A DNA stretch of 46,188 nt from NCBI GenBank assembly GCA_030372945.1, contig JAUCQD010000032.1, positions 1 through 46,188 of the forward strand, given 5' to 3'. This DNA is from Methanothrix sp. GTDB lineage: Archaea; Halobacteriota; Methanosarcinia; Methanotrichales; Methanotrichaceae. Of this stretch, positions 5,078-39,177 are shown in pieces. The notes under the pieces were generated by a model. The model was not told where the DNA came from. It did not search any database and saw nothing but the letters and a program-made list of their open reading frames with translations. Numbering within the stretch: the first letter of the stretch is position 1; each line of letters begins with the position of its first letter. The translations under genes were made by a program, and so were the position numbers.

Positions 5078-5149
5078 TGGACTTGACGGGATTCGAACCC
5101 GTGGCCTCCGCCTTGCGAAGGCGGCGATCTACCACTGATCTACAAGCCC
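5078..5149 (-). tRNA. tRNA-Ala (anticodon CGC)
   Basis: Reverse complement GGGCTTGTAGATCAGTGGTAGATCGCCGCCTTCGCAAGGCGGAGGCCACGGGTTCGAATCCCGTCAAGTCCA folds as a cloverleaf: 7-bp acceptor, CCGCC-TTCGCAA-GGCGG anticodon arm, GGTTCGAATCC T arm. CCA is not encoded. Confidence 0.95.
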
Positions 5150-5627: not shown

Positions 5628-5714
5628 GTTATCTCCTTCCTGGTTGATTTTTTTCCCTGTATAAACCTTCCCATAGCCATGTGGGACGCAGAACGAGTGG
5701 CATTTAGGAAACGC

Positions 5715-6365
5715 TCATCTTATGATAGTTCCCCCTCTGCCGCTTCTCAGCGCCGAGACAAACTGTTGAGGATCGGTGCCATTTAATACCCAAATGCTTC
5801 CGCCTCTGCACAATCCCTGCAGAAGCCACAAGGTGCCCTGATCGATGCAACTCTCTTTTCCCACCAGAGAACTTGCACATAGCTCTTCCTGGACCTTTCC
5901 CTCAAGGATGACCCCGTCCACATCAGTTGCCTTGATGAGGGCTGAGCCGAGCCTGAAGGCTACCAGCATCGCCACTGAGTCAGAGGTGTAGTTCCAGTTA
6001 TGCTCAAGCCCAAAGTCGTCCTCCAGCATAGCCTTATACGGCAGAAGGATCTCGACTGTGGGATATTCGCTATGAGGACGTCGGATATCTCCTGTGAGCC
6101 GCGCGCCAGTTCCATCTGCCAAAAAGTGTGCATACTGCTCCATGGCCAAAATTGCCATCCAATGCGCAGCCTCCTCTGAGACCTTGTGCTGTATGAAAAG
6201 ATCCCAAACAAGGTCGGCCATGGGCCCCCCGCCTGGCACAACCAGAAAGCTGTAGCCTTCATCGGCCAGTGTAAATAGAGAGCGTATCAACTCCCTCGAG
6301 GATGCTATGAGGCTGCCGCCCACTTTTAATACATAGAAATGCATCGGCTTTGAATTAACGAGCAT
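5715..6365 (-). CDS. mfnE: Amino acid kinase superfamily protein, MfnE-like (methanofuran biosynthesis kinase)
   Basis: YVLKVGGSLIASSRELIRSL, FLVVPGGGPMADLVW, HWMAILAMEQYAHFLADG and LIKATDVDGV fit the AAK fold. MfnE assignment is by recalled similarity. Confidence 0.7.
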   Translation of the reverse strand: MLVNSKPMHFYVLKVGGSLIASSRELIRSLFTLADEGYSFLVVPGGGPMADLVWDLFIQHKVSEEAAHWMAILAMEQYAHFLADGTGARLTGDIRRPHSEYPTVEILLPYKAMLEDDFGLEHNWNYTSDSVAMLVAFRLGSALIKATDVDGVILEGKVQEELCASSLVGKESCIDQGTLWLLQGLCRGGSIWVLNGTDPQQFVSALRSGRGGTIIR

Positions 6366-6450
6366 GTATTTTAGGCTCTTCGATGAACTTGGAAATGTAT
6401 CATGGCATGGAAAAGGTTATTCCATAGGTCAGAGGCATCATGGTAGCCAA

Positions 6451-6494
6451 GGTCGATTGGATGTAGGGTAGGGAGGGACACTCCATAATCGACC
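6451..6494. other. Inverted repeat with G-rich loop in the leader of the NUDIX-GluRS ORF
   Basis: AAGGTCGATT (6449-6458) and AATCGACCTT (6487-6496) are perfect inverted repeats; the loop contains GGATGTAGGGTAGGGAGGG. Confidence 0.6.
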
Positions 6495-6548
6495 TTTGCC
6501 GTATGTCCTGACGGTTTCAGTCGTAAATAAGGATTTCGGTTGAGGTGA

Positions 6549-8684
6549 ATGAGAATGATAACTCCTCTCCTGGCAGTAGATGCCATCATACTCTTTCGCG
6601 GAGGGATTGTGCTCATAAAGCGGCACAATCCGCCATATCGGGGCTGCTATGCCCTTCCTGGTGGCTTTGTGGAGGTGGGCGAGAGGGTCGAGGATGCAGT
6701 GAAAAGGGAGGCCCGAGAGGAGACCGGCCTTGACATCGCTTTGAGGGATCTGGTGGGCATCTACTCAGACCCTGGGCGCGACCCCAGAGGGCACGTGGTG
6801 TCAGTCGCATACCTTGCAGAGGGCCGAGGAGATCTGGTATCTGGGTCGGATGCAAGGTCTGCTGAGGTCTTCCCATTGCAGAGCCTCCCGCCACTGGCCT
6901 TCGATCATGAGAAAATAATCGACGATGCCCTACGGAAGGCTGGCAAGAGAGATGCAAAACAATCAAATCAAAGTACGGTAATTGGTTTTTTGGGAGATCC
7001 AAGAATGGAAAAGACAAGAGAGCTCATTGAGATGTATGCGCTTCAGAACGCAGTGAAGTACAAGGCAGCTCCAAACGCCGGAGCTGTCATGGGCAAGCTC
7101 ATGGGCGAGCATCCTGAGCTTCGAGCCCAGGCCAAAGAGTTATCGCCACTTGTAAAAGAGGTCCTGGCCGAGGTGGAAAAGGCAGGCCCGGATGAGTGGC
7201 ACAGGAGGCTGGAGGCCATAGCGCCCGAGCTTTTAGTGGAGCTCTCTGTGAAAAAAGAACCCGACAAAGGCCTGCCGGATCTGCAAGGCGCAAGTGGTGG
7301 CGTGGTCATGCGCTTTGCGCCCAACCCAAATGGTCCGCCGACGCTTGGCAGCGCGCGAGGCATCATTGTAAACTCGGAATATGTCAAAAAGTACGGCGGC
7401 AAGTTCATCATACGCTTTGATGACACCGATCCCGTGAAGAAGCGGCCAATGCCTGAGGCTTACGGCTGGTATCTGGAGGACTGCGCCTGGCTGGATGCCA
7501 AGCCCGATTTGGTGATAACGGCGAGCGAGAGGATCGATCTATACTATCCGATAGTCGAGGAGCTGATCTCGAGGGGCGGGGCTTATGTTTGCGGCTGTCC
7601 TCAGTCAGTCTTCAAGGAGCACAAGGACAGGGGTGTGCCCTGCGAGCACAGGGATCAGACAGCAGAGAAGAACCTCGAGCTCTGGGGGCAGATGCTCGAT
7701 GGCACTCTGGCCGAAGGCCAGGCGGTTTTGAGGATCAAGACGGACATGGGCCACAAGGATCCAGCAATTCGTGACTGGCCAGCCTTCCGGATCGTCTCGA
7801 CGCCTCATCCACTGGTAGGAAGCAAGTTTCGTGTCTGGCCGCTGCTAGATTTCGAGTCGGCTGTGGAGGATCATCTGCTCGGCACGACTCACATACTGAG
7901 AGGCAAGGATCTGGCCGACAGCGGTAGCCGACAGAAGTATTTGTACGATTATTTAGGCTGGAAGTATCCGCAGGTGATTCACTGGGGCAGGATAAGGATC
8001 CATCAGTTCGGATCATTCAGCACAAGCAAACTGCGCAAGGCCATAGAGGCAGGTGAGTATACTGGCTGGGACGATCCCAGGGTGCCAACGGTGCGGGCCA
8101 TGCGCTGTCGGGGCATTCAGCCAGAGGCTCTGCGCAAGTTCATGATAGACCTTGGCGTGGGCGAGACGGACATTGCCATCAGCATGGATTCCATCTATGC
8201 CGAGAACAGGAAGCTCATAGATCCCAAGGCCAATCGGTACTTTTTCGTGTGGAATCCAGTCGAGCTACAAATAGAGGGCGATGTTCCCTCTATCGCAAAA
8301 GCGCCGCTGCATCCTGCAATAGACAGAGGATACAGGGAGATACCGGCTAAAAACAAGGTCTTCATCTGTCACAGCGATCTTGAGGGCCTGAAGATAGGAG
8401 AGAGGATCCGGCTGAAGGACCTGTGCAATGTGGAGATCTTGAGCCTTGAGCCTGCGAGGGCGCGCTTCGAGGGCAGGGATGTGGGCAAGAGGATGAAGAT
8501 CATCCACTGGGCGCCCGCAAGCGGCGTGGCAGTGAAGGTATTGAAGCCAGATGGGATCGACGAGGGCGTGGGCGAGGCAGGAATAGCCAAGGAGCTGAAC
8601 CAGGTTGTGCAGTTTGAGCGCTATGGATTTGTGCGGATCAATCGGCTCGGCGAGCCGATAATTGCGAACTTTGCGCACCGCTGA
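6549..8684 (+). CDS. gltX: Fused ORF: NUDIX hydrolase domain (about aa 1-135) plus archaeal glutamyl-tRNA synthetase (from Met153, nt 7005)
   Basis: Complete NUDIX box GGFVEVGERVEDAVKREAREETGLDI. GluRS motifs RFAPNPNGPPTLGSARG (HIGH equivalent), RFDDTDP and SFSTSKLRKAI (KMSKS equivalent). No stop codon between them. Confidence 0.93.
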   Translation: MRMITPLLAVDAIILFRGGIVLIKRHNPPYRGCYALPGGFVEVGERVEDAVKREAREETGLDIALRDLVGIYSDPGRDPRGHVVSVAYLAEGRGDLVSGSDARSAEVFPLQSLPPLAFDHEKIIDDALRKAGKRDAKQSNQSTVIGFLGDPRMEKTRELIEMYALQNAVKYKAAPNAGAVMGKLMGEHPELRAQAKELSPLVKEVLAEVEKAGPDEWHRRLEAIAPELLVELSVKKEPDKGLPDLQGASGGVVMRFAPNPNGPPTLGSARGIIVNSEYVKKYGGKFIIRFDDTDPVKKRPMPEAYGWYLEDCAWLDAKPDLVITASERIDLYYPIVEELISRGGAYVCGCPQSVFKEHKDRGVPCEHRDQTAEKNLELWGQMLDGTLAEGQAVLRIKTDMGHKDPAIRDWPAFRIVSTPHPLVGSKFRVWPLLDFESAVEDHLLGTTHILRGKDLADSGSRQKYLYDYLGWKYPQVIHWGRIRIHQFGSFSTSKLRKAIEAGEYTGWDDPRVPTVRAMRCRGIQPEALRKFMIDLGVGETDIAISMDSIYAENRKLIDPKANRYFFVWNPVELQIEGDVPSIAKAPLHPAIDRGYREIPAKNKVFICHSDLEGLKIGERIRLKDLCNVEILSLEPARARFEGRDVGKRMKIIHWAPASGVAVKVLKPDGIDEGVGEAGIAKELNQVVQFERYGFVRINRLGEPIIANFAHR

Positions 8685-8688
8685 AAGA

Positions 8689-9522
8689 TCACAAGAGATC
8701 CATTTGGTGAAGGGCTCCAGCAAGGAACGCAGCCAGGGCGAATGCCATTCCGATCTTGAGCGCCCTCTGCGATCCTGCGGCATTTCCTCTGGCCACAATC
8801 ATGATCGAGGCAAGGAAGAAGAGATCTGCTACAGTAACTATTGCCATGTACGCCATACCAAAAGGTGCAGTGAAGCTCAGTGCCACTGCAAGAGCGGCAA
8901 AGGCGGCTGCCAGGGCCGATGCAGTTCGCACCCCTGCCAAGATTGGAAGCGTCTTTGCACCGCCCACGCGGTCTCCTTCCATGTCCTCCACATCCTTCAT
9001 GATCTCGCGGCTCATGGTCGCCAAGAATGAGAGGAGAAAAGGAACCTTGTTTGCCAGTAGCCCGGCAACGCCTGCTGCACCTCCCCCGAAGAGGAAGACT
9101 GAGCCCGTCAGAAAAGCAACGCAGATGTTTCCTGCGAGTGGCGTGGCCTTGAGGCTCCTGGCATAAATGATCAACAGAGCTGAGTTGAGGACTGCCACCC
9201 CAAGGCAGATCTGATTCACAACTCCTGCCATAATGCAGCCCGAAGCAAAAAGGATCAGCGAATAGCGGAGGGCCGTCTGGGAATCGATTCTACCGCTGGG
9301 TATTGGCCGCTTTGGTCTGTTGACGGCATCGATCGCTCGATCGTAGTAATCGTTAACGGCGTTGCCAGCGCCAGTGATCAAGAAAACTGACAGGAATATC
9401 AAGATTAAAATCCTTGGATTTTGGCTCAGGGCGATTGCCAGTCCGATGACGGCAGCTATGCCTGCCATAGTGCAGTTGATCGGACGCAAAATCTCCCAGA
9501 ATGCCCTCAAAGCCTCAATCAC
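8689..9522 (-). CDS. UbiA-family prenyltransferase, probable digeranylgeranylglyceryl phosphate synthase (archaeal ether lipid)
   Basis: NAVNDYYDRAIDAVNRPKRPIPSGRI and SREIMKDVEDMEGDRVGGAKTLP are the two Asp-rich UbiA motifs; multiple TM helices. Confidence 0.9.
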   Translation of the reverse strand: MIEALRAFWEILRPINCTMAGIAAVIGLAIALSQNPRILILIFLSVFLITGAGNAVNDYYDRAIDAVNRPKRPIPSGRIDSQTALRYSLILFASGCIMAGVVNQICLGVAVLNSALLIIYARSLKATPLAGNICVAFLTGSVFLFGGGAAGVAGLLANKVPFLLSFLATMSREIMKDVEDMEGDRVGGAKTLPILAGVRTASALAAAFAALAVALSFTAPFGMAYMAIVTVADLFFLASIMIVARGNAAGSQRALKIGMAFALAAFLAGALHQMDLL

Positions 9523-9531
9523 CTAGCTCAA

Positions 9532-9852
9532 CTAAGAGCGTGTCACGTATTCCAGATAGATCTCAGTTAAGTATCTATCGATATAGCTAAATCTTGCGGC
9601 CTTGCCGGTTTGGTGAGACAGCCTGATGCGAAAAGTGCTGCTCGAAGGCACCCTCTCCCTGTAGATGTGGCCTGCCGACAGCATTCTGCAGACCACTCTC
9701 GAGCACTTGCTGCTATCGATACATAAAAGCCTTCGGAGCTCCGACTGGAGAAGGCCGTCTGATGTTGAGCCGATTAGATTTAGTGCTCTCTCTTGCAGGG
9801 CCAAGGAGCTGTTTGCAGGAGTCTCTCCTATCTTTCTTGACATCGCAATCAC
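9532..9852 (-). CDS. Small winged-helix (HTH) transcriptional regulator-like protein
   Basis: ALNLIGSTSDGLLQSELRRLLCIDSSKCSRVVCRMLSAGHIYRERV resembles a MarR/Lrp-like wHTH. Confidence 0.6.
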   Translation of the reverse strand: MIAMSRKIGETPANSSLALQERALNLIGSTSDGLLQSELRRLLCIDSSKCSRVVCRMLSAGHIYRERVPSSSTFRIRLSHQTGKAARFSYIDRYLTEIYLEYVTRS

Positions 9853-10050
9853 AAACCAGGATTAAACTTAATTTATTTTGTTATAGTCATAGTATAAATT
9901 CTTTTTGACAAGATGCTGTTTTTTGTCTTAAAATTTTATAAGAATATCCGAAAATATGAAAAAATAAAAACATACTCATCATGGCGATGACCGATGCAAC
10001 CTGATTCAAACCTTCCATCAGCGTTGCCAAATGCCTGCCCAAGCCCAAAG

Positions 10051-10964
10051 CTATTTGCGTCTTCGGTAGATCTCTCGCATCATCTCTCTGTGCAAAGAAG
10101 CCATCATATCTCCAAGGATGCCGATGAGAAATAGCTGAAAGCCCACGATTATCAATATCGCAGTTAAAATTGTTAGGGGAATGTGCTCAATGCGCCAGTT
10201 GATCCAGTCTCTTGCAACATAAAGTCCGATCAAAAATCCGACTGCACCAAATATGGAGCCGATCAGGCCGAAGAAGAACATGGGATTCTCGGTCTTAGCC
10301 ATTCGAAATATTGTGAGGGCTATCTTCAGTCCGTCTCGAAAAGGATTGAGCTTCGTCCTCGTGCCGATGGCCCTTGGCATGTAGGTGATAGGAATCTCCA
10401 TGATGCGCAATCCCTTTTTCACGCTCTCAATCGTCATCTCCGACTCGATCTCAAATCCCGGCGTGGAGAGATCCAGAAGGCGTATGCCATCTGTCGTGAA
10501 GGCCCTGTACCCTGAGAGGATGTCTTTGAGATGAACGCCGTAGATAAAGACGAAAAAGCGGTTGATGATTTTGTTGCCGAACATGTTCAGACGCTTTAGT
10601 GCACCGCCCTTCAAGTGGCCGAACCGGTTTCCAACAACGTGGTCTGCTCTGCCCTTGAACAAAGGGTCCAAAAGCATAAAAGCCTCGGAAGGCAGATACG
10701 TCCCATCGCCGTCAATCAAAAGTATATACGGTTGTTCGATCGTCTCAAAGACCTCTTTTAGCGCCTGACCCTTGCCTGAGCCCGACTGGAGGACTACGCG
10801 AGCACCGGCAGTTTCTGCCTTCGAGACCGTTGCGTCTTTGCTGTGGCCGTCCACACAACCAGTATGTTCTCGAAGCCCATGGCTCGGAATTCTCGGATCA
10901 CCGATTCGATGGACTCCTCTTCGTCGAGGGTCGGTATGAGGACGCAGACGTCTTGGTAACTCAA
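10051..10964 (-). CDS. GT2-family glycosyltransferase (DPM synthase/AglK-like), interrupted by a frameshift near nt 10853; intact C-terminal ORF is 10051..10854
   Basis: Downstream frame: DGHSKDATVSKAETAGARVVLQSGSGKGQALKEVFE...LLIDGDGTYLP plus two C-terminal TM helices. Upstream frame: LSYQDVCVLIPTLDEEESIESVIREFRAMGFENILVV, the missing GT2 N-terminus. Confidence 0.85.
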
Positions 10965-11013
10965 GCGGGCTCAGCTCTGTACTGGTTGTATTCGGCCTGA
11001 CTGGCGAGGCTCA

Positions 11014-13576: not shown

Positions 13577-13888
13577 TGCGAGAGAGGAAGGGCGGCTGCC
13601 GCTGGCCAGTCTTTGGTCGGTGTGGAAAGTCCCCCCACCCCTGGACACACAGACATCCCAAAGGATGTGGGGCGAGAGCTCCGGCTCTGGCACAGAAACG
13701 AGACCGCTCCGCGCAAAAGCGATGATGCCGCGAGGCTGAAGGTCGCGCTGGGTTTGCGGATGAAACGGCGAAACCCTGTGGGTGCAAGCCAAAATAGGGC
13801 TGTTAAACTGGATGTCCAGCCAAGCCCGGGTATGGCGCTAAGCTGAATGCCGCCGTGAACAGAAGGGGGCTTACTCTCCTCACTCGCA
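13577..13888 (+). ncRNA. rnpB: RNase P RNA
   Basis: CR-I GGAAAGTCCCCC and CR-V ACAGAAGGGGGCTTACT form P4 (AAG[U]CCCCC with GGGGGCTT, including the bulged U). Also CACAGAAACGAGACCG, GATGAAACGGCGAAACCC and GGGTGCAAGCCAAAATAGG. P1 ends TGCGAG...CTCGCA pair. TATA-like gttatat lies upstream. Confidence 0.92.
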
Positions 13889-27850: not shown

Positions 27851-28045
27851 ATGAGGATAGCCATGCCGGACGGGAGCAGAAAGGAGATGACGGTGAGCGT
27901 GGCCAGCATCGAGGAGATCTTGAAGGAGCTACATATAAATCCAGTAGAGGTCGTCGTGGCCAAGAACGGCAAAATTGTGCCTGAGGAGGAGACTGCAAGC
28001 TCTGCAGATGAGCTGAAGATCGTGCGAGTGGTGCACGGTGGCTAG
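27851..28045 (+). CDS. ThiS/MoaD-type small sulfur carrier protein
   Basis: 64 aa, beta-grasp-like, NPVEVVVAKNGKIVPEEE..., terminal GG. Confidence 0.85.
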   Translation: MRIAMPDGSRKEMTVSVASIEEILKELHINPVEVVVAKNGKIVPEEETASSADELKIVRVVHGG

Positions 28046-28802
28046 GTTTGCTCTTATGCTGAATGATCTCGAAAAAAAGAGATACTCCCGCCAGATCTGT
28101 CTCTTTGGCGAGGATGGTCAGAGGAGGCTGAAAAAGACAGGCGCCTTCATCGCAGGAGCTGGCGGCCTTGGATCTATCATATCGATCTACATGGCTGCTG
28201 CAGGCTTTGGCATGATTCGAATCGTGGACTGCGATAGCGTCGAGCTCAGCAATTTGAACAGGCAAGTATTGCACTGGAGCGGTGATGTGGGCACTAGCAA
28301 GGCAGCATCTGCGAAGGACACGCTTGAAGGCATAAATCCAGAGATAGAGGTTGAAGCCATGGAGGAGACAATCAGCATAGAAAACATAGATCAACTACTG
28401 AGTGGGTGTGACATCATCATGGATGCCATGGACAATTTTCCTACCAGATACATTCTGAACAAAGCCGCCCTGAAAAAGAAGATCCCTCTCTTTCATGGTG
28501 CTATTTGCGGCTACCAGGGGCAGGCCACAACCATAATACCAGGCAAGACGGCCTGCCTGCGCTGCACCTTTCCGCGAGCGCCTCCTGTCACGACATTCCC
28601 CGCTTTAGGATCCACTTGCGGGGTAATCGGCTCCATTCAAGTGACTGAGGCTGTGAAGTATGTCTTGGGCTCTGGTGGGCTTCTGGAGAATCGACTGATG
28701 CTGTGGGACGGCTTGAGCTCCAGCATGGACGAGGTAGCATGCGCGCGCAACCCAAGCTGCCAAGATTGTCGTGAAGCTGGTCTGGAAAGAGAAGATAACT
28801 GA
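28038..28802 (+). CDS. ThiF/MoeB/HesA family E1-like adenylyltransferase
   Basis: RYSRQICLFGEDGQRRLKKTGAFIAGAGGLGS, ELSNLNRQVLHW, CDIIMDAMDNFPTRYILN, zinc pairs CLRC and CQDC. Confidence 0.93.
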   Translation: MARFALMLNDLEKKRYSRQICLFGEDGQRRLKKTGAFIAGAGGLGSIISIYMAAAGFGMIRIVDCDSVELSNLNRQVLHWSGDVGTSKAASAKDTLEGINPEIEVEAMEETISIENIDQLLSGCDIIMDAMDNFPTRYILNKAALKKKIPLFHGAICGYQGQATTIIPGKTACLRCTFPRAPPVTTFPALGSTCGVIGSIQVTEAVKYVLGSGGLLENRLMLWDGLSSSMDEVACARNPSCQDCREAGLEREDN

Positions 28803-28826
28803 GAACCGTAATCGAGTGATGAGCAG

Positions 28827-29276
28827 ATGACAGAGTCCAAAAAAGCGTTGCTTGCTATGGGCTGTCCGGAGGTGCCTGTGCAGACGAGCATGGCAATCTA
28901 TCTTTCCCATAAGCTTGAAGCTGCAGGCTACGATGTGACCATTGCGGGCACAGATGCAGCCGTCAAGCTGCTGAAGGTTGCCGATCCAGATGGATATTAT
29001 GTGAAAAAGACAGCTGACCTGGACCAGCTCATAGCAGATATCGTTGAGAAGAAGGTCGACTTTGATCTGTGCTTCGCCTTCATGCACAACGACGCTGGCA
29101 TGACCTATGGAGCTACATTCAGCGCCATATCCAGGGCAAAGCTATTTGCAGTGGTCTTCGGCAGGAACGCCGAAGCCCTGGCTGAGGAGATCGAATACCC
29201 AGCAGAGAAGATAGTCGCCAAGGCTGTCCACAACCCAAATCCACTTAAGAATAAGATCGACAAGGTGGTCTTGTGA
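28827..29276 (+). CDS. DUF1890-like methanogen protein
   Basis: KKALLAMGCPEVPVQTSMAIYLSHKLEAAGYDVTIAGTDAAVKLLKVADP; family named from recalled similarity, next to a DUF1894-like gene. Confidence 0.75.
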   Translation: MTESKKALLAMGCPEVPVQTSMAIYLSHKLEAAGYDVTIAGTDAAVKLLKVADPDGYYVKKTADLDQLIADIVEKKVDFDLCFAFMHNDAGMTYGATFSAISRAKLFAVVFGRNAEALAEEIEYPAEKIVAKAVHNPNPLKNKIDKVVL

Positions 29277-29635
29277 GCTGCATCGAGCAGATGAAGTATA
29301 AGCTGTATCTTGAGCGCACATCGTTCAAGGAAGCTCGCGAATACATAGAAAAGAACTCGGAGGAGGTCTACTATGTCGATCCTGGATACAAGATATTCAA
29401 GGATTACTACATCATCGGCACGCCGCCTGTGGCCATGGGTGTCAGGGGAAAGGAGATGCTCTTTACCTATGTCAAGCCTTGCCACGGCACCTTCGTCATG
29501 GGCATAGACTCAGAGGAGGAGATCAACAGGCTCAGGGAGAATGAGGCGGGCAAGATCAAGAGATCTCAAAAGAAGGGGCCGAAGGAGAGAGCAGAACCTG
29601 TGCCCTCCAGCTACAGTGAGATCTGGAGAAAATAG
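29273..29635 (+). CDS. DUF1894-like methanogen protein
   Basis: YKLYLERTSFKEAREYIEKNSEEVYYVDPGYKIFKDYYIIGTPPVAMGV...KPCHGTFVM; overlaps the preceding gene. Confidence 0.75.
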   Translation: MSCIEQMKYKLYLERTSFKEAREYIEKNSEEVYYVDPGYKIFKDYYIIGTPPVAMGVRGKEMLFTYVKPCHGTFVMGIDSEEEINRLRENEAGKIKRSQKKGPKERAEPVPSSYSEIWRK

Positions 29636-29637
29636 CC

Positions 29638-29916
29638 ATGTTGGTAAAAGTGAGGGCATTTGCCAGCATTCGGGAGATTTTAGGCAGGGAGCTTGAGCTT
29701 GATCTGATGGCGGGCTCAACTTTGGGGGTGCTGCTGGAAGATCTGGCTTCAACCAACCGGAGGTTCAAAGAAGCCGCCTTTGAGGATTCCGGCCAGCTCA
29801 AAGACTGGGTGATGATCATGATAAACAAAAAAATGATCGATCCCCTCCAGGCTCTTGAGACGGAGCTGCATGAGGGAGACGAGATTGCTATATTTCCTCC
29901 TGTCGCTGGAGGCTGA
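29638..29916 (+). CDS. moaD: MoaD-family molybdopterin synthase small subunit/ubiquitin-like protein
   Basis: MLVKVRAFASIREILGRELELDL...EGDEIAIFPPVAGG with terminal GG; followed by moaE. Confidence 0.92.
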   Translation: MLVKVRAFASIREILGRELELDLMAGSTLGVLLEDLASTNRRFKEAAFEDSGQLKDWVMIMINKKMIDPLQALETELHEGDEIAIFPPVAGG

Positions 29917-29923
29917 TGCTCGG

Positions 29924-30310
29924 TTGATCAAGATTTCTGATGAGGACTTCTCCCTCGACGAGATGGTGAGGGCGGCCAAAAGGGATGATGCTGGTGCCAT
30001 TGTGACATTTCTTGGATCAGTCAGGGACGACGGCATCATTGAGATGCAACTGGAGGCATACCGAGAGGCTGCCCTGCCGGTGCTGGAGCGCATCCGGGAG
30101 GAGGCGGAGAGCAGATTCAACCTGAAATCGGTTCAAATCGTTCACCGCATCGGCCTGCTCTCAGTGGGAGATAACATCGTTGCAATTGTCTGCTCAGCAG
30201 GACACCGAGATGAGGCCTTTCAAGGGTGCAGGTACATCATCGAGGAGCTGAAGAGCAAAGTGCCCATCTGGAAGAAGGAGATTGGAAAGGATGAAGAGAG
30301 GTGGGTTTGA
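29924..30310 (+). CDS. moaE: Molybdopterin synthase catalytic subunit
   Basis: ISDEDFSLDEMVRAAKRDDAGAIVTFLGSVRD, IVHRIGLLSVGDNIVAIVCSAGHRDEAFQ, VPIWKKE. TTG at 29924 fits the MoaE N-terminus better than the ORF start at 29855. Confidence 0.93.
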   Translation: MIKISDEDFSLDEMVRAAKRDDAGAIVTFLGSVRDDGIIEMQLEAYREAALPVLERIREEAESRFNLKSVQIVHRIGLLSVGDNIVAIVCSAGHRDEAFQGCRYIIEELKSKVPIWKKEIGKDEERWV

Positions 30311-30311
30311 C

Positions 30312-30629
30312 ATGAGTGAGTATGTGATCGTCTTATGCACGACCGCTCCTGCAGAAGCAGACAAGATCGCCAGAGCCATTGTGGAGGAGAGGCTGGCGGC
30401 GTGCGTCAATATCGCCCCTGTGAGGTCTTGCTATGTCTGGGAAGATAAGTTCACGCAAGAAAACGAGGAGCAGATGATCATCAAGACGGAGCTGGAAATG
30501 GTCGAGCCTCTCAGCAAGAGGCTGCTGGAGCTGCACAGCTACAAAGTCCCTGAGATCATAGTCCTCACTATCCTAGATGGACACAAACCTTATTTGCAGT
30601 GGGTCTCAGAGTCTGTAAAGAAAAATTAA
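30312..30629 (+). CDS. cutA: Divalent-cation tolerance protein CutA
   Basis: YVIVLCTTAPAEADKIARAIVEERLAACVNIAPVRSCYVWEDK...SYKVPEIIVLTI. Confidence 0.95.
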   Translation: MSEYVIVLCTTAPAEADKIARAIVEERLAACVNIAPVRSCYVWEDKFTQENEEQMIIKTELEMVEPLSKRLLELHSYKVPEIIVLTILDGHKPYLQWVSESVKKN

Positions 30630-30655: not shown

Positions 30656-32932
30656 TCAAGCGTACATCTCTCCACGCTCCGCCTCGCGTGAGGCCTTCTT
30701 GCGCAACTCCTTTCCCATCTTGGCATAATACTTCATGGTATCAGGCGTGACCGATGGCCCGATCTCCTCAAGAGCGGCTAGGAAGTGCCTCTGATAGATC
30801 TTCTCAGATGCCATATCCTCGCGCAGAGCAAGTCGCCCAGCCTTTCGAACCAAGGAGGCTATATCTGCACCTGTGTACTGATCAGTCAGATCGATCAGCT
30901 CGTCTATGTCAACATCCTCGGCCAGTGGCGCCTTTTGCAGGTGAACTTGCAGGATCTTCTTGCGGGACTCTTTGTCTGGCACTGGAACCATGATCAGCTC
31001 ATCGAAGCGCCCTGGCCGGAGCAGCGCCGGGTCGATGATGTCGGGTCGGTTGGTGGCCCCGATCACCACCACTTCCCTGAGCTCTTCTAAGCCGTCCATC
31101 TCGCTGAGAAGCTGGTTGACAACCCGCTCTGTGACATGAGGCTCTCCGGCTGCTCCTCCTCTCACTGGCACCAGTGCATCCAGCTCATCCAGGAAGATGA
31201 TGGATGGCGCGACCTGCCTCGCCTTGCGGAAGATCTCCTCGACCTTCTTTTCGCTCTCACCATACCACTTGGAGAGGAGTGCGCTGCCTTTAACTGAGAT
31301 GAAGTTCGCCTCGCTCTCATTGGCCACTGCCTTGGCGAGCATCGTCTTTCCAGTGCCCGGCGGCCCGTAGAGAAGAATGCCTTTGGGCGCATCAAGTCCC
31401 AAGCGTCGGAAGCTGTCAGCATTTCTCAAAGGCCACTCCACAGCCTCCACGAGGAGCTGCTTGACGCCCTCCAGGCCCCCGATGTCCTGCCAGCTCACAT
31501 TCGGAACCTCGACCAGTATCTCTCGCATGGCAGAGGGCTGAACATCCCTCAAGGCATCCTCGAAGTCTTCACTGTGAACTATGAGCCTGTCCAGAATCTC
31601 CTTGGGGATGGTTGGCTCATCAAGGTCGATCTCAGGAAGGATGCGGCGCAGAGCATTCATGGCAGCCTCACGGCAAACGGCTGCAATATCGGCACCCACG
31701 AAGCCGTATGTCCTCTTCGCAAAATCGTCCAGATTCACGCCTTCATGCAAAGGCATGCCCCTGGTGTGAATCTGAAAGATCTCCATGCGCCCTTCTGTGT
31801 CAGGAACGCCCAGCTCAATTTCACGGTCGAACCTTCCCGGACGACGCAGTGCTACGTCCAGAGCCTCGGGTCGGTTGGTGGACCCGATCACAATCACGTT
31901 CTTCCTCTCTTTCAGACCGTCCATGAGGGATAGGAGCTGAGCCACAACGCGCCGCTCGACCTCGCCTGTGACATCGCCACGCTTGGGTGCGATGGAATCC
32001 AGCTCATCTAAGAAGATGATCGCAGGAGTATTCTTCTCAGCCTCTTCGAAGATGTCACGGAGGGCCTTCTCGCTCTCTCCGTAGTACTTAGACATGATCT
32101 CAGGGCCGTTGATGCTTATGAAGTATGCATCGCTCTCGTTGGCCACGGCCTTGGCGAGCATTGTCTTTCCAGTGCCAGGTGGGCCGTGCAGCAGGACTCC
32201 TTTTGGAGGGTCGATCCCCAGACGATCGAAGAGCTCGGGATGCTTTAGTGGAAGCTCTATCATCTCTCGGACCTTGGTTATTACCGGCTTCAGGCCACCG
32301 ACATCCTCATAGACCACTGATGGCACCGACCGCTCCGGAGTCTCCACTGCCTGGGGCAGAAGCTCTATCTCCGTTCCTTCTGTGATCTTGACGATCCCTG
32401 ATGGGCTGGTTGAGATGACCCGCAGCTTGATCTCTCCAAGTCCAAAGGCCTGAGCGCCCAGAAAGCCCCGAAAGATCTCCTCGAACATGGTCTCTCGCCC
32501 GAGGGTCTCTGTTGGAGGCCTTCGAACGCTGGTAGTGGAGATGATATCGCCCTTGATCACAGGCCTTCCGTTGAATACCTTGATGAGGACGTCTCCAGGT
32601 GCGAATATCTGCATTCCCTGTGTCACAGGGGCCAGAGTGACGTGCTTGGCCTCACTCCAGACTGCTTTTTTAACCTCGACGAACTGACCTATGCTCGTTC
32701 CAGCGTTGGATCTGATCAGGCCGTCCATCCTGGCCATGTCGATGCCCTGGTCTGCAGAATAAGCGCTGACTGCAAGAGCTGCTGTGGGCCGAGAACCTGC
32801 AATCTCCACCACATCCAGAGGGCGAGCGCCAATTCTCTCCAGAAACTCCTCACCGATCCGCACTATTCCCTTTCCCACATCGCCTTGATTTGCTTCTGCT
32901 ACCTTGAGTTTGACGCCTTCACCTTCAGTCAT
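30656..32932 (-). CDS. CDC48/VCP-family AAA+ ATPase
   Basis: Two AAA modules: [23 protein letters not shown]...SRH regions and [24 protein letters not shown]-terminal CDC48 double-psi barrel ([19 protein letters not shown]). Confidence 0.97.
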
Positions 32933-33028: not shown

Positions 33029-33244
33029 TCACGCCACTTTGTACCCTGCCCCTTCAACGGCTCTTTTCAAATCCTGCAAGGTAGTTTTCCCTGGATCGTA
33101 CTCAACGTACGCTTTCTTCTCTGCCAATTCAACTCTTGCCTCATGAACGCCCTCCAGCTTTAGAAGGGCCTTCTTTACAGCATCAGAGCAACCGGCACAA
33201 GCCATGCCGACTACAAACAATTCGGCTTTTTTATTTTCCACCAT
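33029..33244 (-). CDS. Heavy-metal-associated (HMA) domain protein, CopZ-like
   Basis: GMACAGCSDAVKKALLKLEGV is a metal-binding CxxC in an HMA fold. Confidence 0.92.
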   Translation of the reverse strand: MVENKKAELFVVGMACAGCSDAVKKALLKLEGVHEARVELAEKKAYVEYDPGKTTLQDLKRAVEGAGYKVA

Positions 33245-33275
33245 AAAGGATGTGTCCTCCTAATGTGTCCTCCTT

Positions 33276-33851
33276 TTATCTATGAAACATCTCCTCGTAC
33301 TTTGCATGTCTCCCTGAGAAGACTGGATATGTGAAGCTCATCCCCTCACTTCCGAGCATCGCGCCCAGAGGCTTTGCACTTTCAAAGTCCATCTCGCCTT
33401 TGCTATTGAAGAACCTGTCATCGCCCTCCAGGTGCACCACCTTTCCAATGATCAGAACGAACTTATCTCTAATGATCTCCTCCAATAGTGTGCACTCTGC
33501 CCAGGCGAGGCACCCTTCTATGCCTGGAGCGCCAACGATTGTCGATGGCCTGGGACGCAGGCCAGCCTCCTGGAACTCGTCGACTTCAGGAGGATAGTTT
33601 CTGGCACAGATCATAACAGCATCCTCCATTCCGACCCTGGGAATATTGACCACGAACTCTTTGGTATGGCGTATGTTCTCCAGTGTGTCGCGCTTCAACC
33701 ATGAGGCCAAGAGGACCTCGTCCAGTGGGCGCAAGATCGGCGTGAAGTTGGACCACGGGGCTGCATTCCTGATTCCGTCTTTTGAGATGGTAGAGATAAG
33801 CACCACAGGAAGAGGGAGAATGTTCTCCCTCTGATTCGGTCTCAATATCAT
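33276..33851 (-). CDS. Flavin reductase/FMN-binding split-barrel family protein
   Basis: PLPVVLISTISKDGIRNAAPWSNFTPI, KRDTLENIRHTKEFVVNIP. Confidence 0.9.
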   Translation of the reverse strand: MILRPNQRENILPLPVVLISTISKDGIRNAAPWSNFTPILRPLDEVLLASWLKRDTLENIRHTKEFVVNIPRVGMEDAVMICARNYPPEVDEFQEAGLRPRPSTIVGAPGIEGCLAWAECTLLEEIIRDKFVLIIGKVVHLEGDDRFFNSKGEMDFESAKPLGAMLGSEGMSFTYPVFSGRHAKYEEMFHR

Positions 33852-33878
33852 GGATTCCTCCTTTCAATTTAACCCTTT

Positions 33879-34628
33879 TCAGGCAGCAAGCAGCTTATCG
33901 GTGATCTTCTCCATCTCTGGAATCTGCGGAACCTCGTCTCCTCTCAAGCAGGCCTTGAAGACCTCCCTGTCAAAGGGCAAAACCCCGATCACCTTGTTTT
34001 TATCTACAAGCTCCAAGAGCTCCGATGAGTTCTCATCCATTCGGTTTAAGATGAAAAATACCGGCTTTCCAATCTTTTGGCACATCTCAGAGATCTTGGC
34101 GGATAGCTGCACAGATTCAAAGCTTGGGTCCACCACTACAACGATCTTGTCGCATCCAGCCTCCACACCGCGTCCGAAGTGCTCGATGCCCGCATCCGTA
34201 TCCACGATAACGTGCTCTCCGTTGGTCTTCAGCTTTTCCAGGAACTCTCGTGCCAGTGCGCCCATGGGACAGGCACAGCCCTCTCCAAAGCTATGAATCT
34301 TGCCAATTGCCACAAGCTTTATGCCATCCTCGCCGACTACAAGCTCTTGAGGTATGTCTTTTATGGAGAACTCATCCAAGATCTTCAGACCTTCCTTCCT
34401 TTCGGATCTAAAGAACTTCATCATTTTTTCCGATAGCGCTTTCTTGCCTCCCAAAGATTCCATGAAATCTTTGGGCTGCAAAAAACCAAGCTGCTTGTAA
34501 AGTCCGAAGTTGGACTCGTCTGTGTCCACCACCAAAACTTCATTCTCTCTCTTCGCAATCTCTTTTGCCATAAGCGCAGAGATAGTGCTCTTTCCGCTTC
34601 CACCCTTTCCGCAAATAAGTATCTTCAT
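33879..34628 (-). CDS. cooC: CooC-like CODH nickel-insertion ATPase (MinD/ParA superfamily)
   Basis: MKILICGKGGSGKSTISALMAKEIAKRENEVLVVDTDESNFGL, GCACPMGALAREFL, HVIVDTDAGIEHFGRGVEAGCD. Confidence 0.9.
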   Translation of the reverse strand: MKILICGKGGSGKSTISALMAKEIAKRENEVLVVDTDESNFGLYKQLGFLQPKDFMESLGGKKALSEKMMKFFRSERKEGLKILDEFSIKDIPQELVVGEDGIKLVAIGKIHSFGEGCACPMGALAREFLEKLKTNGEHVIVDTDAGIEHFGRGVEAGCDKIVVVVDPSFESVQLSAKISEMCQKIGKPVFFILNRMDENSSELLELVDKNKVIGVLPFDREVFKACLRGDEVPQIPEMEKITDKLLAA

Positions 34629-34642
34629 CTTCAGTTCACTTC

Positions 34643-36193
34643 CTAAACAAAGGACAGTTTGTTCTGGGCGATGGGAATGCCATTGGCGACTCCTCGCTTG
34701 GTGTAGTACATATCGACAAGGCCGTCATGAGCCCAATACGAATTTGAATAGTACAGTGGCAATGCTGGAAGATCCTGAGCATAGACTGCCTGTACCTCAG
34801 CTACAAGCTCTTTTCTCTTCTCAGGATCCATCTCAGAGACCTCTCTTTCAAGGAGATCATTGAGCTTCTGATCAGCAGCATACCGAGCGCTATTGAAGGT
34901 ATAACCCTCGCCGATGATCCTGTTCAAGATCTCGGGGTCGCCGCCCATGCCGCCGTGGCTGTTCAAAGCCAGATCGAAGCTCCACTCTCCAACGAGGCTG
35001 TCCAGGGTCTTGGAGTCCACGCTGCGCAATGTTACCTTGAATCCAGCCTTCTCGAGCTGCTGCCTGATCATCTCGCCTGTGCGCTCGCTTGTGGAGGTCA
35101 CGAGCATCTCTATCTCCAGAGCAGTTCTGTTCTTGGAGAAGTACTCTCCTTCTTTTGAGTAGCCCATCTCGGACATCAGATCCGCAGCTTTCAGCGGGTC
35201 GTATTTGTACTGCTCCACATCGGGATTGTACCACTCGCTGTCGGGTGCGAAGAGTCCCGGGCTGGCGATTATTCCAAAGCCACGCAGAGCGTTGTCCACC
35301 AGTGCCTGCCTGTCAATGGCATAATAGAGCGCCTGCCTGATCCTCGCATCGGAGAAGGGCTCCTTCTTATGGTTCACCATGATCTTGGTGATCCCATCGC
35401 GCGGCGAATTCAAGACAACAAAGTTCTCCTTCTTGAGCTTCTCCACAGCCTCTGCAGGCACGCTGATCGCATCAACATCTCCTTTTTCAAGAGCTGCCGC
35501 TGCCATCTCACTGCTCACTTTTACAAATTTGAGCTGCCGAACCCTCGGAGCTCCGAGATAGTAGCCATCATAGGCCTCGTAAAGATACGTCCCTTGGGTC
35601 TTATCGTAGTTCACGAGCTTGTACGGTCCAGTTCCAACAAGGGCCTTCTCATCCTGAAACTTCGCAGGGTCGGAGACGCTTTTGTAGATATGCTCTGGAA
35701 GGATGGGGAGAGTTCCGGCTACCATATCCAGGAAAGGCGCATAGGAATGGTTCAGATAGATCTTAACTGTATACTCATCAAGCGCCTCAGCCTTCTTTAT
35801 AGGCTCGGAGTTGACCCACTGGTATGGGTGCTGCTTGATGTAGCCTACTGTGAAGACCACATCGCCCGCAGTAAACCTTTCGCCATCATTCCATGTGGCG
35901 TTCTTTCTCAGGTTGAAGACATAGGCGTCATCTCCATCCATCTGCCAGCTCTCTGCCAGCGCGGGCACGTAGCCATTCTGGTCCTTCCAGACGAGGGTGT
36001 CGAAGATGAGGCTCATCCTGATGTAACCTGGGCCGCGAGAGTAGTGTCCGTAGGGCGACGGAAATCCCCAGTCGCCGGTTGTATCGCCGATAGTGTAAAC
36101 CGCCACCTCTTCTTCAGCGCAAACGAAGCCGGAGAAGAGCATAATCATGGCCAGCAAAAGAACGCCTCTGGCAGTCGAATTACTAATTTTCAA
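34643..36193 (-). CDS. ABC transporter substrate-binding protein family 5 (oligopeptide/nickel, DppA/NikA-like), secreted
   Basis: Signal peptide; YNPDVEQYKYDPLKAADLMSEMGY, FNLRKNATWNDGERFTAGDVVFT, IRQALYYAIDRQALVD. GGTGGAGATC precedes TTG 36193; ORF opens at 36211. Confidence 0.92.
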   Translation of the reverse strand: MKISNSTARGVLLLAMIMLFSGFVCAEEEVAVYTIGDTTGDWGFPSPYGHYSRGPGYIRMSLIFDTLVWKDQNGYVPALAESWQMDGDDAYVFNLRKNATWNDGERFTAGDVVFTVGYIKQHPYQWVNSEPIKKAEALDEYTVKIYLNHSYAPFLDMVAGTLPILPEHIYKSVSDPAKFQDEKALVGTGPYKLVNYDKTQGTYLYEAYDGYYLGAPRVRQLKFVKVSSEMAAAALEKGDVDAISVPAEAVEKLKKENFVVLNSPRDGITKIMVNHKKEPFSDARIRQALYYAIDRQALVDNALRGFGIIASPGLFAPDSEWYNPDVEQYKYDPLKAADLMSEMGYSKEGEYFSKNRTALEIEMLVTSTSERTGEMIRQQLEKAGFKVTLRSVDSKTLDSLVGEWSFDLALNSHGGMGGDPEILNRIIGEGYTFNSARYAADQKLNDLLEREVSEMDPEKRKELVAEVQAVYAQDLPALPLYYSNSYWAHDGLVDMYYTKRGVANGIPIAQNKLSFV

Positions 36194-36237
36194 AAGATCT
36201 CCACCTTTCAATTGATACTTAACAAGCTTTCTCTTGA

Positions 36238-36266
36238 GAAAAAAAGCCGCAAGGTAGCTTGCGGCT
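36238..36266 (-). terminator. Intrinsic terminator-like hairpin plus T7 between the FmdE-like gene and the SBP gene
   Basis: Minus strand AGCCGCAAG-CTAC-CTTGCGGCT followed by TTTTTT; perfect 9-bp stem. Confidence 0.75.
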
Positions 36267-36286
36267 TGGCGGCTTCGTTCCCAATT

Positions 36287-37357
36287 TTACAGGACACCTG
36301 CCACCTTCAATGGATGCATTCCAGCATTCTGGAGCATGGCCAGCTTGGCAGAGTCGACCTTGAACTCCTTGATCGTCGATATGAAGGCCTCGGGTTTGTC
36401 CACATAGTCCATGAGCACAATGTCCTGGTAGATCTTGGATCCCCATGCAGGTCCCTTCCATTGAGGCAATTTCACAGCACTGAAGTTGAAGCCCAGTGCC
36501 AATGCATCGCCTGATTTCGATGTGTCGTTCCAGCGTATATAAATCCCGGCTATGTTGGGCACCGCCTTCTTTTCAGCATCTGTCAAAGCCATTACGAACA
36601 TGCCGCTCTTTCCCGGTGTGGCGTCCCAGCGCATCTGGAGGAGGTCATCCTTGCACCAGTTGGGGCATGCTATGACCTTGTAGCTCTCAGCAGTGGTGTT
36701 ATTGATGGGCAGTTTCTCCTCTACATACTTGGCCAGGAACAGTCCGCTGGTAACTCCAGGGCAGAGGTGGTCGTGGAAACAGGTGTCCTGTATGAAGTCG
36801 AATGAGCCTCCGCGAGCCCAGACGTTTGCGATGCTGACCAATGAGAACTCATTTCCATTGAAGGCCTTCTGGTTAAAGGTGACATTGCCCTCGTCTGTGT
36901 GGTTCTCCAGGTAGTCCATATCTATATTAGCCTTGGAGATCTTTGAGAATACCTTATCGACAGGCTGTGCCTTAAAATCATCTAGCGAAGTTTTCAGGGC
37001 GCTCCCATTGGTCTCCATATATATCGCTTCGCCTGACGCCTTGTTGAAGACGAAGAACCATACAGGCTTCCAGTAAGGTCGCAGGACTTGGAAGAGGTTG
37101 CCATCGCCGATGCTGCATCCAGTCTCAGCCGTCACACCCTTTAGTGCTGCCTGCGTCGTCTGCCCGTCTACGATGGCATAACCGGCGTTGGTCAGAGCCA
37201 GGATATTTTCGTCGCCTTTCTCGAACTTTAGCTGATCCATGGCGGCTTTGGCAGCCTTGGAACCCAGCTCCTCCATGATAGTGCTCTCCGCCAGCGCCAC
37301 TCCGGGCATTATCGCCAAGAGAAGCGCCAGAACAAATGTCCTCTCTTTTATATTCAT
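36287..37357 (-). CDS. Secreted FmdE-domain protein
   Basis: Signal peptide MNIKERTFVLALLLAIMPGVALAES; FmdE-like metal motif CFHDHLCPGVTSGLFLAKY and CPNWCKDDLLQ. Confidence 0.82.
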   Translation of the reverse strand: MNIKERTFVLALLLAIMPGVALAESTIMEELGSKAAKAAMDQLKFEKGDENILALTNAGYAIVDGQTTQAALKGVTAETGCSIGDGNLFQVLRPYWKPVWFFVFNKASGEAIYMETNGSALKTSLDDFKAQPVDKVFSKISKANIDMDYLENHTDEGNVTFNQKAFNGNEFSLVSIANVWARGGSFDFIQDTCFHDHLCPGVTSGLFLAKYVEEKLPINNTTAESYKVIACPNWCKDDLLQMRWDATPGKSGMFVMALTDAEKKAVPNIAGIYIRWNDTSKSGDALALGFNFSAVKLPQWKGPAWGSKIYQDIVLMDYVDKPEAFISTIKEFKVDSAKLAMLQNAGMHPLKVAGVL

Positions 37358-37425
37358 TTCAACTCATCTCACTACAATTCATTCTACGAACTTCTTTTTA
37401 ACACTGGTCTTGGTTTCGAGCTTCT

Positions 37426-37457
37426 CATTTATGAATTTTTCTATAAAAAATAACACT
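37426..37457 (-). promoter_or_regulatory. Putative promoter of the FmdE-like gene with AGTGTTA repeat
   Basis: Minus strand AGTGTTATTTTTTATAGAAAAATTC has a TATA-like element; a second AGTGTTA lies at 37399-37405. Confidence 0.45.
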
Positions 37458-37569
37458 AAGTAACTATCGTTATCTTCGCCTTGGATAAAAACGTGTCAAA
37501 TCATCGCTTCATTTCAATTGCTTGACAATTCTCTGAGAAGTAAAAGAGAGATCTCCTTCCTAAAGATTA

Positions 37570-39177
37570 TCATTTTCTTCGTCCCTTCATCGCCTCCACG
37601 AATGCCAAGAATGGAGGCGACGGCCTGCCTGGCCGGGACTTCATCTCCGGGTGGAACTGAGATCCAAAGAAGAATGGATGCCCTGGTATCTCACATATCT
37701 CCATCAGGTCGCCGTTGGTGCCGGAGAAGAGCATACCCTTCTCCTCAATGGGCTTGATGTAGGCGGGATTGACCTCGTAGCGGTGCCGGTGTCTCTCGAC
37801 GATCTCCAAGGTTCCGTAAATCTTGTGCGCCAGGCTGCCCTCTTTCAGGTGCGCAGGATAGTTGCCCAGCCGCATAGTCGCTCCCATGTTCCTGATCTTC
37901 TCCTGCTCGGGCAGGATGGCTATGACCGGGTGGGGCGTGGCCCCGAACTCCGTGCTGCTGGCGCCCTCCAGGCCGCAGACATTGCGAGCAAACTCGATCA
38001 CAGCCAGTTGCATTCCAAAGCAAATTCCAAGGTACGGAACCTTCATCTCTCTGGCGTACTGAACTGCCTTGATCTTTCCCTCTGTGCCCCGCGAGCCAAA
38101 TCCGCCCGGCACAAGGATGCCGTCGACGTCCCGCAAGATGAGGTCCGCCGAGCCACGCTCCAGCTCCTCGGCATCTATCCACACAATCGTCGGCCTGACT
38201 CCTGCCTCAATTCCAGCATGCTTGAGGGATTCGCGAATGGAGAGGTATGCATCCTCCATTGGGTCAGCGCACTGCGAGCCCACTGTGTACTTGCCGACGA
38301 TCGCCACCTTGACTTCTCCCCGGCAGGCGTCCATCTTCTTCACGAACTCGTCCCAGTCTTTGCGCTCCTCCAGAGGGAAGAGCCTCATGGCCTTCATCAG
38401 ATACTTGGCAAGCCCCTCGGCCTCCATCTGCAAAGGCACCTTGTAAATGTCGTCCGCGTTGTGGGCGCTGATGACAGCTTCCACGGGTACATCACAGAAC
38501 TGGGCGATCTTATGCTTCGTCTCCGCCAGCAGTGGCCGCTCGCAGCGCACTACTATCATGTCAGGCTGCAGCCCGAGCTCTCGCATCACCTTGACGCTGT
38601 GCTGCGTGGGCTTGGTCTTCTGCTCGCCATCCATGGTCGATGGAGCCAGTGTGACGTGCACAAAAAAGATATTCCCTGACTCCTCGTACCTGAGCTGCCG
38701 CATGGCCTCGAGAAATGGCATTGACTCGATGTCACCCACAGTTCCTCCCACCTCAATGAGGCAGATCTCGCATCCGCCATCCCTCGATTCCTGACGAATG
38801 CGCCTCTTTATCTCCTCTGTGATGTGCGGAATGATCTGCACCGTCTTGCCCAGGTACTCGCCCCGTCTCTCCTTCTCGATTACAGTGCTGTAAACCTTGC
38901 CGGTTGTGATGTTGTGGTCCCGCGTGAGCTCGACGTCCAGGAACCGCTCATAGTTCCCAAGGTCCAAGTCCACCTCACCTCCATCCTTGAGGACGAAGAC
39001 CTCACCATGCTGGAAGGGACTCATGAGACCTGCATCTATGTTGATGTAGGGATCTATCTTGATGGCTGTTACCTTATAACCCCTGTTCATGAGCAGTCTG
39101 CCTATGGATGCAGCAGTAATGCCCTTCCCAAGGCCGCTCATAACCCCGCCAGTTACCACAATGTACCTCATATTCAC
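37570..39177 (-). CDS. pyrG: CTP synthase
   Basis: [67 protein letters not shown]. Confidence 0.98.

Follow-up and report, generated by a model that had tools for sequence, protein, structure and literature searches.

The window, a stretch of 46,188 nucleotides that corresponds to contig C32 of a 2.1 Mb Methanothrix genome in 291 contigs (G000, hereafter the host genome), carries five co-oriented open reading frames on the minus strand, which are flanked by pyrG (37570-39177) and a CDC48-type AAA gene (30656-32932). The open reading frames, their Pfam matches and the motif CFHDHLCPG in the first product confirmed the protein families proposed in the initial annotation. The first gene (36287-37357) encodes a protein of 356 amino acids with a signal-like N-terminus (codons 37286-37357), and since this protein matches the FmdE family in two stretches (PF02663, 3.8e-18), it represents a tandem FmdE protein that is presumably secreted. 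It is followed by the genes for a family-5 substrate-binding protein (SBP) with a TTG start (34643-36211; PF00496, SBP_bac_5, 3.2e-77), a CooC-like SIMIBI ATPase of the CooC/MinD type (33879-34628; CbiA, 2.3e-14), a flavin reductase-like FMN protein (33276-33851; PF01613, Flavin_Reduct, 1.4e-22) and, as an optional last gene, an HMA metallochaperone domain with the motif GMACAGC (33029-33244; PF00403, 6.7e-19). The gap between the FmdE and SBP genes measures 75 nt and the following gaps 14, 27 and 31 nt. A candidate TATA-like sequence, TTCATAAAT, is located upstream of the FmdE gene (37427-37435, minus strand), where related genes are likewise enriched in AT-rich words. The FmdE/SBP gap contains a terminator-like hairpin of 10 bp followed by a T run (36244-36267, minus strand), the stem of which is retained with changed letters in the close relative L046, and a T-tailed hairpin is present in L035 as well. 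This conservation suggests that the FmdE gene may be transcribed separately from the other four genes or at a higher level. No RNA families were found in the locus, and an anti-phage reading of the locus gave no meaningful match.

Among 36 FmdE homologues, the only invariant histidine and cysteine residues are His195, His197, Cys199 and Cys235 (36/36 sequences; coding stretch 36653-36775, minus strand). The spacing of this quartet (HxHxC, 36 residues, C) is that of the His15/His17/Cys19/Cys55 site of B8FYU2_DESHY, an FmdE protein whose crystal contained zinc and nickel at this site in a ratio of 2.6:1 (PMC2954224). A phmmer search against PDB sequences yielded no real relative, its sole match being due to chance, and a fold comparison was therefore used: the AlphaFold model (pLDDT 89) matched the FmdE-like protein 2glz of Desulfitobacterium best (Foldseek, E 1.6e-4) and also 2gvi. 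Thus, both the profile and the fold place the protein in the FmdE family, with which it shares the metal site and, as described for the majority of PF02663 genes (PMC2954224), a neighbourhood of metal-ion transporter genes. It differs from the family in its secretion and its two FmdE domains per chain, in having kept the site in the C-terminal domain only, and in being encoded outside an fmd operon; indeed, no fmd or fwd catalytic genes lie beside it, its neighbours at the locus being pyrG and the AAA gene. The nearest named relatives of the host genome are Methanosaeta/Methanothrix MAGs, and the FmdE protein is 97% identical in one of these, PtaB.Bin018. Relatives of the secreted FmdE protein were found in 78 of the 394 genomes of the phylum, with varied neighbourhoods, and in Methanosarcina the gene is solitary, with CofD as its neighbour. 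The association of FmdE with transporters is therefore not universal.

Several of the relatives deserve a separate remark. In some Methanosarcina and other lineages (L056, L149 and the genomes of family f10), a single open frame of about 690-760 (up to 993) amino acids contains the FmdE tandem twice. On contig C222 of the host genome (L057, region 5640-11004), a one-copy FmdE gene is separated from CbiM by about 4 kb, a further case of FmdE near a Ni/Co-type transporter. A contig filed as ‘Clostridiales bacterium’ (L176) encodes a secreted FmdE protein at 44% identity, reflecting either misbinning or transfer. Lastly, stop codons or changes of frame interrupt FmdE or CooC genes in L047 (G015), L040 (G016) and L125 (G034), which may represent assembly errors or decay.

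The structures closest to the model of the SBP (pLDDT 75) are NikZ of Campylobacter jejuni (4oet) and NikA (1zlq), and nearly all of its top 16 structural matches are NikA or NikZ. The nickel ligand of NikA is His416; among the 19 SBPs compared, His419 is invariant. The SBP scores below the cut-off of the NikA equivalog model (NCBIfam TIGR02294; 148.3 bits versus 393). No permease gene lies within the window, and in this respect the initial annotation was correct. However, the recommended search for a DppBCDF/NikBCDE-type permease elsewhere in the genome was successful: SBP-TrmO-DppB is located on contig C220 and DppB-DppC-DppDF on contig C56, with the contig break falling inside dppB, and in relatives these genes are joined to the module. 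The SBP is therefore not an orphan. The complete set of an SBP, two permeases and two ATPase domains is contiguous in relatives (L037, L041/L214) and is distributed over C32, C220 and C56 in the host genome, which also contains a FecCD set (C2), a methyltransferase gene (C6) and two NikR genes. A further SBP, 69% identical to that of the window, is encoded at the end of contig C6 together with a FepB-like protein and the methyltransferase MTa (L239).

The initial annotation had named a lack of conserved gene order in relatives as a reason to reject its reading, but the order proved to be conserved. An FmdE gene followed on the same strand by SBP and/or CooC genes is present in 14 Methanothrix genomes (G000, G001, G002, G004, G006, G007, G011, G012, G015, G016, G017, G019, G022 and G023), at differing chromosomal places, and the order FmdE-SBP-CooC-FLAV recurs across many species and loci. 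G012 and G023, which are close relatives, share the pyrG location of the module. A second block, SBP'-TrmO-DppB-DppC-DppDF, stands apart from the module in many genomes, the host genome among them, and a single strand run unites FmdE or CooC genes with SBP-TrmO-DppB(-DppC-DppDF) in G001, G006, G011, G018, G019 and G022 (in G006, G011 and G018 as far as the contigs or loci extend). In many relatives, a third block, composed of an ABC-2 pair followed by FepB-MTb-SPFH-FecCD-FecE, runs in the opposite direction away from the FmdE gene, and its FepB-MTb-SPFH-FecCD-FecE part is found on contig C2 of the host genome. The module is absent from several near-complete Methanothrix genomes (G013, G020 and G021), and NikM/CbiM-type genes occur in 41 of 41 genomes; the module is therefore accessory. 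A search of the open-licence literature found no description of this gene cluster. A Methanothrix-like module was also encountered on a contig filed under ‘Candidatus Nanosynbacter’ (L165), with an SBP and a CooC protein 82% identical to those of the window and a P-type ATPase 95% identical to that of G004; this contig was probably misbinned.

Nickel is most strongly indicated by the presence of a NikR gene behind the transporter operon. In six genomes (G001, G007, G008, G018, G019 and G024), a gene for a NikR protein with the Ni-binding domain (PF08753, 2.6e-34 to 7.4e-34) follows DppDF on the same strand at a distance of 18-69 nt, and G001 and G019 have an uninterrupted strand run that leads from FmdE to NikR. 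Counted over all DppDF genes with a visible 3' side, NikR is found there in 6 of 15 cases and is absent in 9. In G006, NikR is located upstream of FmdE, and in G013 and G020, which have no module, the corresponding NikR gene stands beside CbiM/NikM. With one or two NikR genes among approximately 2,300 genes, we estimate the chance of finding NikR right behind a given gene at about 1/1000 per genome, but the six genomes are related, so that these chances should not be multiplied and the linkage may reflect a single event. NikR is not adjacent to the module in the host genome. A motif search upstream of the FmdE, SBP, FepB, ABC-2 and CbiM genes found no convincing NikR operator, the dyads and words that it returned being mostly TATA-like AT-rich words common to close relatives.

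The CooC-like ATPase has CooC (3kje) as its best PDB match (5.6e-18), and shares with the Carboxydothermus CooC-1 protein a deviant Walker A motif (GKGGSGKS) and a Cys-x-Cys site: Cys118 and Cys120 (34269-34277, minus strand) are the aligned counterparts of Cys112 and Cys114 of CooC-1, which bind zinc or nickel at the dimer interface (PMC6006190). Unlike CooC-1, it is linked to transporter genes rather than CODH genes and belongs to a separate clade of 23 members (tree support 100/99) with the signature [FY]GEGCACPMG, in which CxC is invariant and a single member reads FDEGCACPMG. Members of this clade nearly always stand beside metal-type ABC transporter genes, which they adjoin in four families. 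Outside Methanothrix, clade members stand with FepB-FecCD-FecE, TrmO or methyltransferase genes in L121, L122 and L123 and with Opp-type genes in L120, and the arrangement FmdE-FepB-FecCD-FecE-MTa-CooC was observed in a further family at a locus outside the tree (L140); two clade members from Methanosarcinaceae (L124, L126) have no such neighbours. We infer that the role of this ATPase is tied to metal import. A third type of CooC-like ATPase, with the motif GAGCLC, was found in L108 (contig C78 of the host genome), L128 and L242. In L108 it lies beside DUF4198, two family-5 SBPs and DppB/DppC, and thus constitutes an independent link of CooC-like ATPases to Opp-type transporters.

Taken together, these observations make it rather probable that the five genes form one module of a system for the acquisition of nickel, or of a nickel complex, whose parts are scattered in the host genome and joined in relatives. 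The idea that the locus serves metal acquisition, with nickel as the likeliest metal, is thereby strengthened by the NikR linkage, the metal site of the FmdE protein and the NikA/NikZ-like fold of the SBP, and we regard nickel itself as a reasonably likely cargo. In such a system, the secreted tandem FmdE protein would bind Ni(II) outside the membrane via His195, His197, Cys199 and Cys235, and would hand over the metal or a small nickel complex to the NikA/NikZ-like SBPs, one of which is encoded here and two more elsewhere in the genome. The SBPs would then all dock on one common permease of the Opp/Nik type (DppB-DppC-DppDF), which has a fused double ATPase. Within the cell, the dimeric CooC-like ATPase might receive or release nickel at its Cys-x-Cys site in an ATP-driven manner, while reduction, release or buffering of the metal could be assisted by the FMN protein and, in a few species, by the HMA protein. 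NikR would control the system in some species. The sequences themselves establish which genes are present, their conservation, the metal-ligand residues and the linkage to permease and NikR genes, whereas nickel as the cargo, import as the direction, the succession of handover steps and what the FMN and HMA proteins and the methyltransferases of the wider cluster do are inferences. Several findings count against nickel: no NikR gene stands next to the module in the host genome or behind 9 of the 15 DppDF genes with a visible 3' side, no NikR operator was found upstream, the SBP scores below the NikA cut-off, many family-5 SBPs bind peptides, and the crystal site of FmdE contained more zinc than nickel.

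The latter finding is also in line with the view that the same machinery transports another cargo, such as cobalt, zinc, a corrinoid or another metal chelate, and that the linkage to NikR reflects cross-regulation. This view would also account for the chelate-type FepB/FecCD set with methyltransferases that many relatives carry in divergent orientation next to the FmdE gene, and for the HMA protein being of the CopZ/MerP type. However, the regulator behind the transporter genes is NikR and no other metal regulator, and the structures closest to the SBP are those of nickel-binding proteins, and we therefore consider another cargo unlikely, albeit worth keeping in mind. Ordinary peptide uptake of the Dpp/Opp type, with FmdE, CooC and HMA as chance neighbours, appears improbable. 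By sequence, the SBP indeed belongs to family 5 with Lmo0135/CtaP as its top match, and the permease is of the Opp type, but chance neighbours are difficult to reconcile with an FmdE-SBP-CooC-FLAV order that is repeated in many species at different loci, or with related CooC proteins that join FecCD-type sets in other families.

The HMA gene in the window, the P-type ATPase in the clusters of G004, G006, G018 and G019 and the nearby CutA1 gene could be taken as signs of a defence or efflux system for metals of the copper, zinc or mercury type, in which the HMA protein, the P-type ATPase and the flavoprotein would take part. This is very improbable, as the conserved core consists of an SBP and an importer-type permease, and the P-type ATPase is absent from the module in the window. 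Moreover, HMA is limited to four genomes, each time behind the FMN gene, which itself is common in the module and resembles archaeal FMN-binding/flavin reductase proteins of the PF01613 fold class (1eje, 8.9e-14). HMA is therefore an optional add-on and not the core part for which it had been taken; the protein has a plain HMA domain and scores below the NCBIfam cut-off for CopZ (66.5 bits versus 91). The initial annotation had also linked CooC to CODH. Acetoclastic Methanothrix depends on CODH/ACS, and a maturation locus in which CooC and HMA insert nickel into CODH would be compatible with the CooC fold and the CxC site. Yet, the cdh operon of the host genome (contig C270, L110) has its own CooC gene between the CODH alpha-type and CdhD genes, and this cdh CooC is placed on a long branch, far from the transporter-linked clade of the window protein. 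A role in CODH maturation is therefore extremely unlikely and was rejected.

Compared with known systems, the proposed nickel module is most reminiscent of NikABCDE/NikZ-type importers, with which it has in common a family-5 SBP with NikZ/NikA as best folds, two Opp-type permeases, ATPases and, in six genomes, NikR by the operon. In contrast to these importers, there are at least two SBPs per system, the ATPase is a DppDF fusion, the SBP falls short of the NikA model cut-off, and an FmdE protein, a CooC-like ATPase, a TrmO-like gene and a methyltransferase are regular companions. The module may thus be a variant of Nik/Opp-type nickel import. The known nickel and cobalt uptake system of methanogens, the ECF importer NikMNQO/CbiMNQO, which is NikR-linked in G013 and G020, has proteins unrelated to those of the module, and since CbiM-type genes were found in all 41 genomes, the module would be an additional system. 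The relatives that carry the module beside a NikR gene suggest that it may represent a so far undescribed nickel route in methanogens.

The wider cluster regularly includes TrmO-like and class I methyltransferase genes. Fusions of FmdE to a tRNA methyltransferase domain, reported from Methanosarcinales and Archaeoglobales (PMC11237513), would be consistent with FmdE and the TrmO-like protein being functionally connected. It is tempting, but at present rather doubtful, to envisage a new nickel-scavenging pathway in which the extracellular tandem FmdE protein serves as a protein metallophore and the transporter-dedicated CooC ATPase frees nickel inside the cell; in such a pathway, the linked methyltransferases (MTa, TrmO-like) might contribute by producing a small, methylated chelator of nickel. 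If the module does acquire nickel, Methanothrix, a major acetate-using methane producer, would possess, as a second system linked to NikR, a high-affinity capture route that employs a secreted binding protein of the nickel/zinc type. This would also provide a role for many FmdE proteins outside formylmethanofuran dehydrogenase, and a transporter-linked function for the entire CooC clade.

Lastly, several other features were identified in the window. Beyond the CDC48-type gene, the plus-strand genes at 28038-30629 encode ThiF, DUF1890, ThiS/MoaD-type, MoaE and CutA1 (divalent ion tolerance) proteins and point toward the locus. An archaeal RNase P RNA is located at 13580-13885 on the plus strand, and a tRNA-Ala (cgc) at 5078-5149 on the minus strand.
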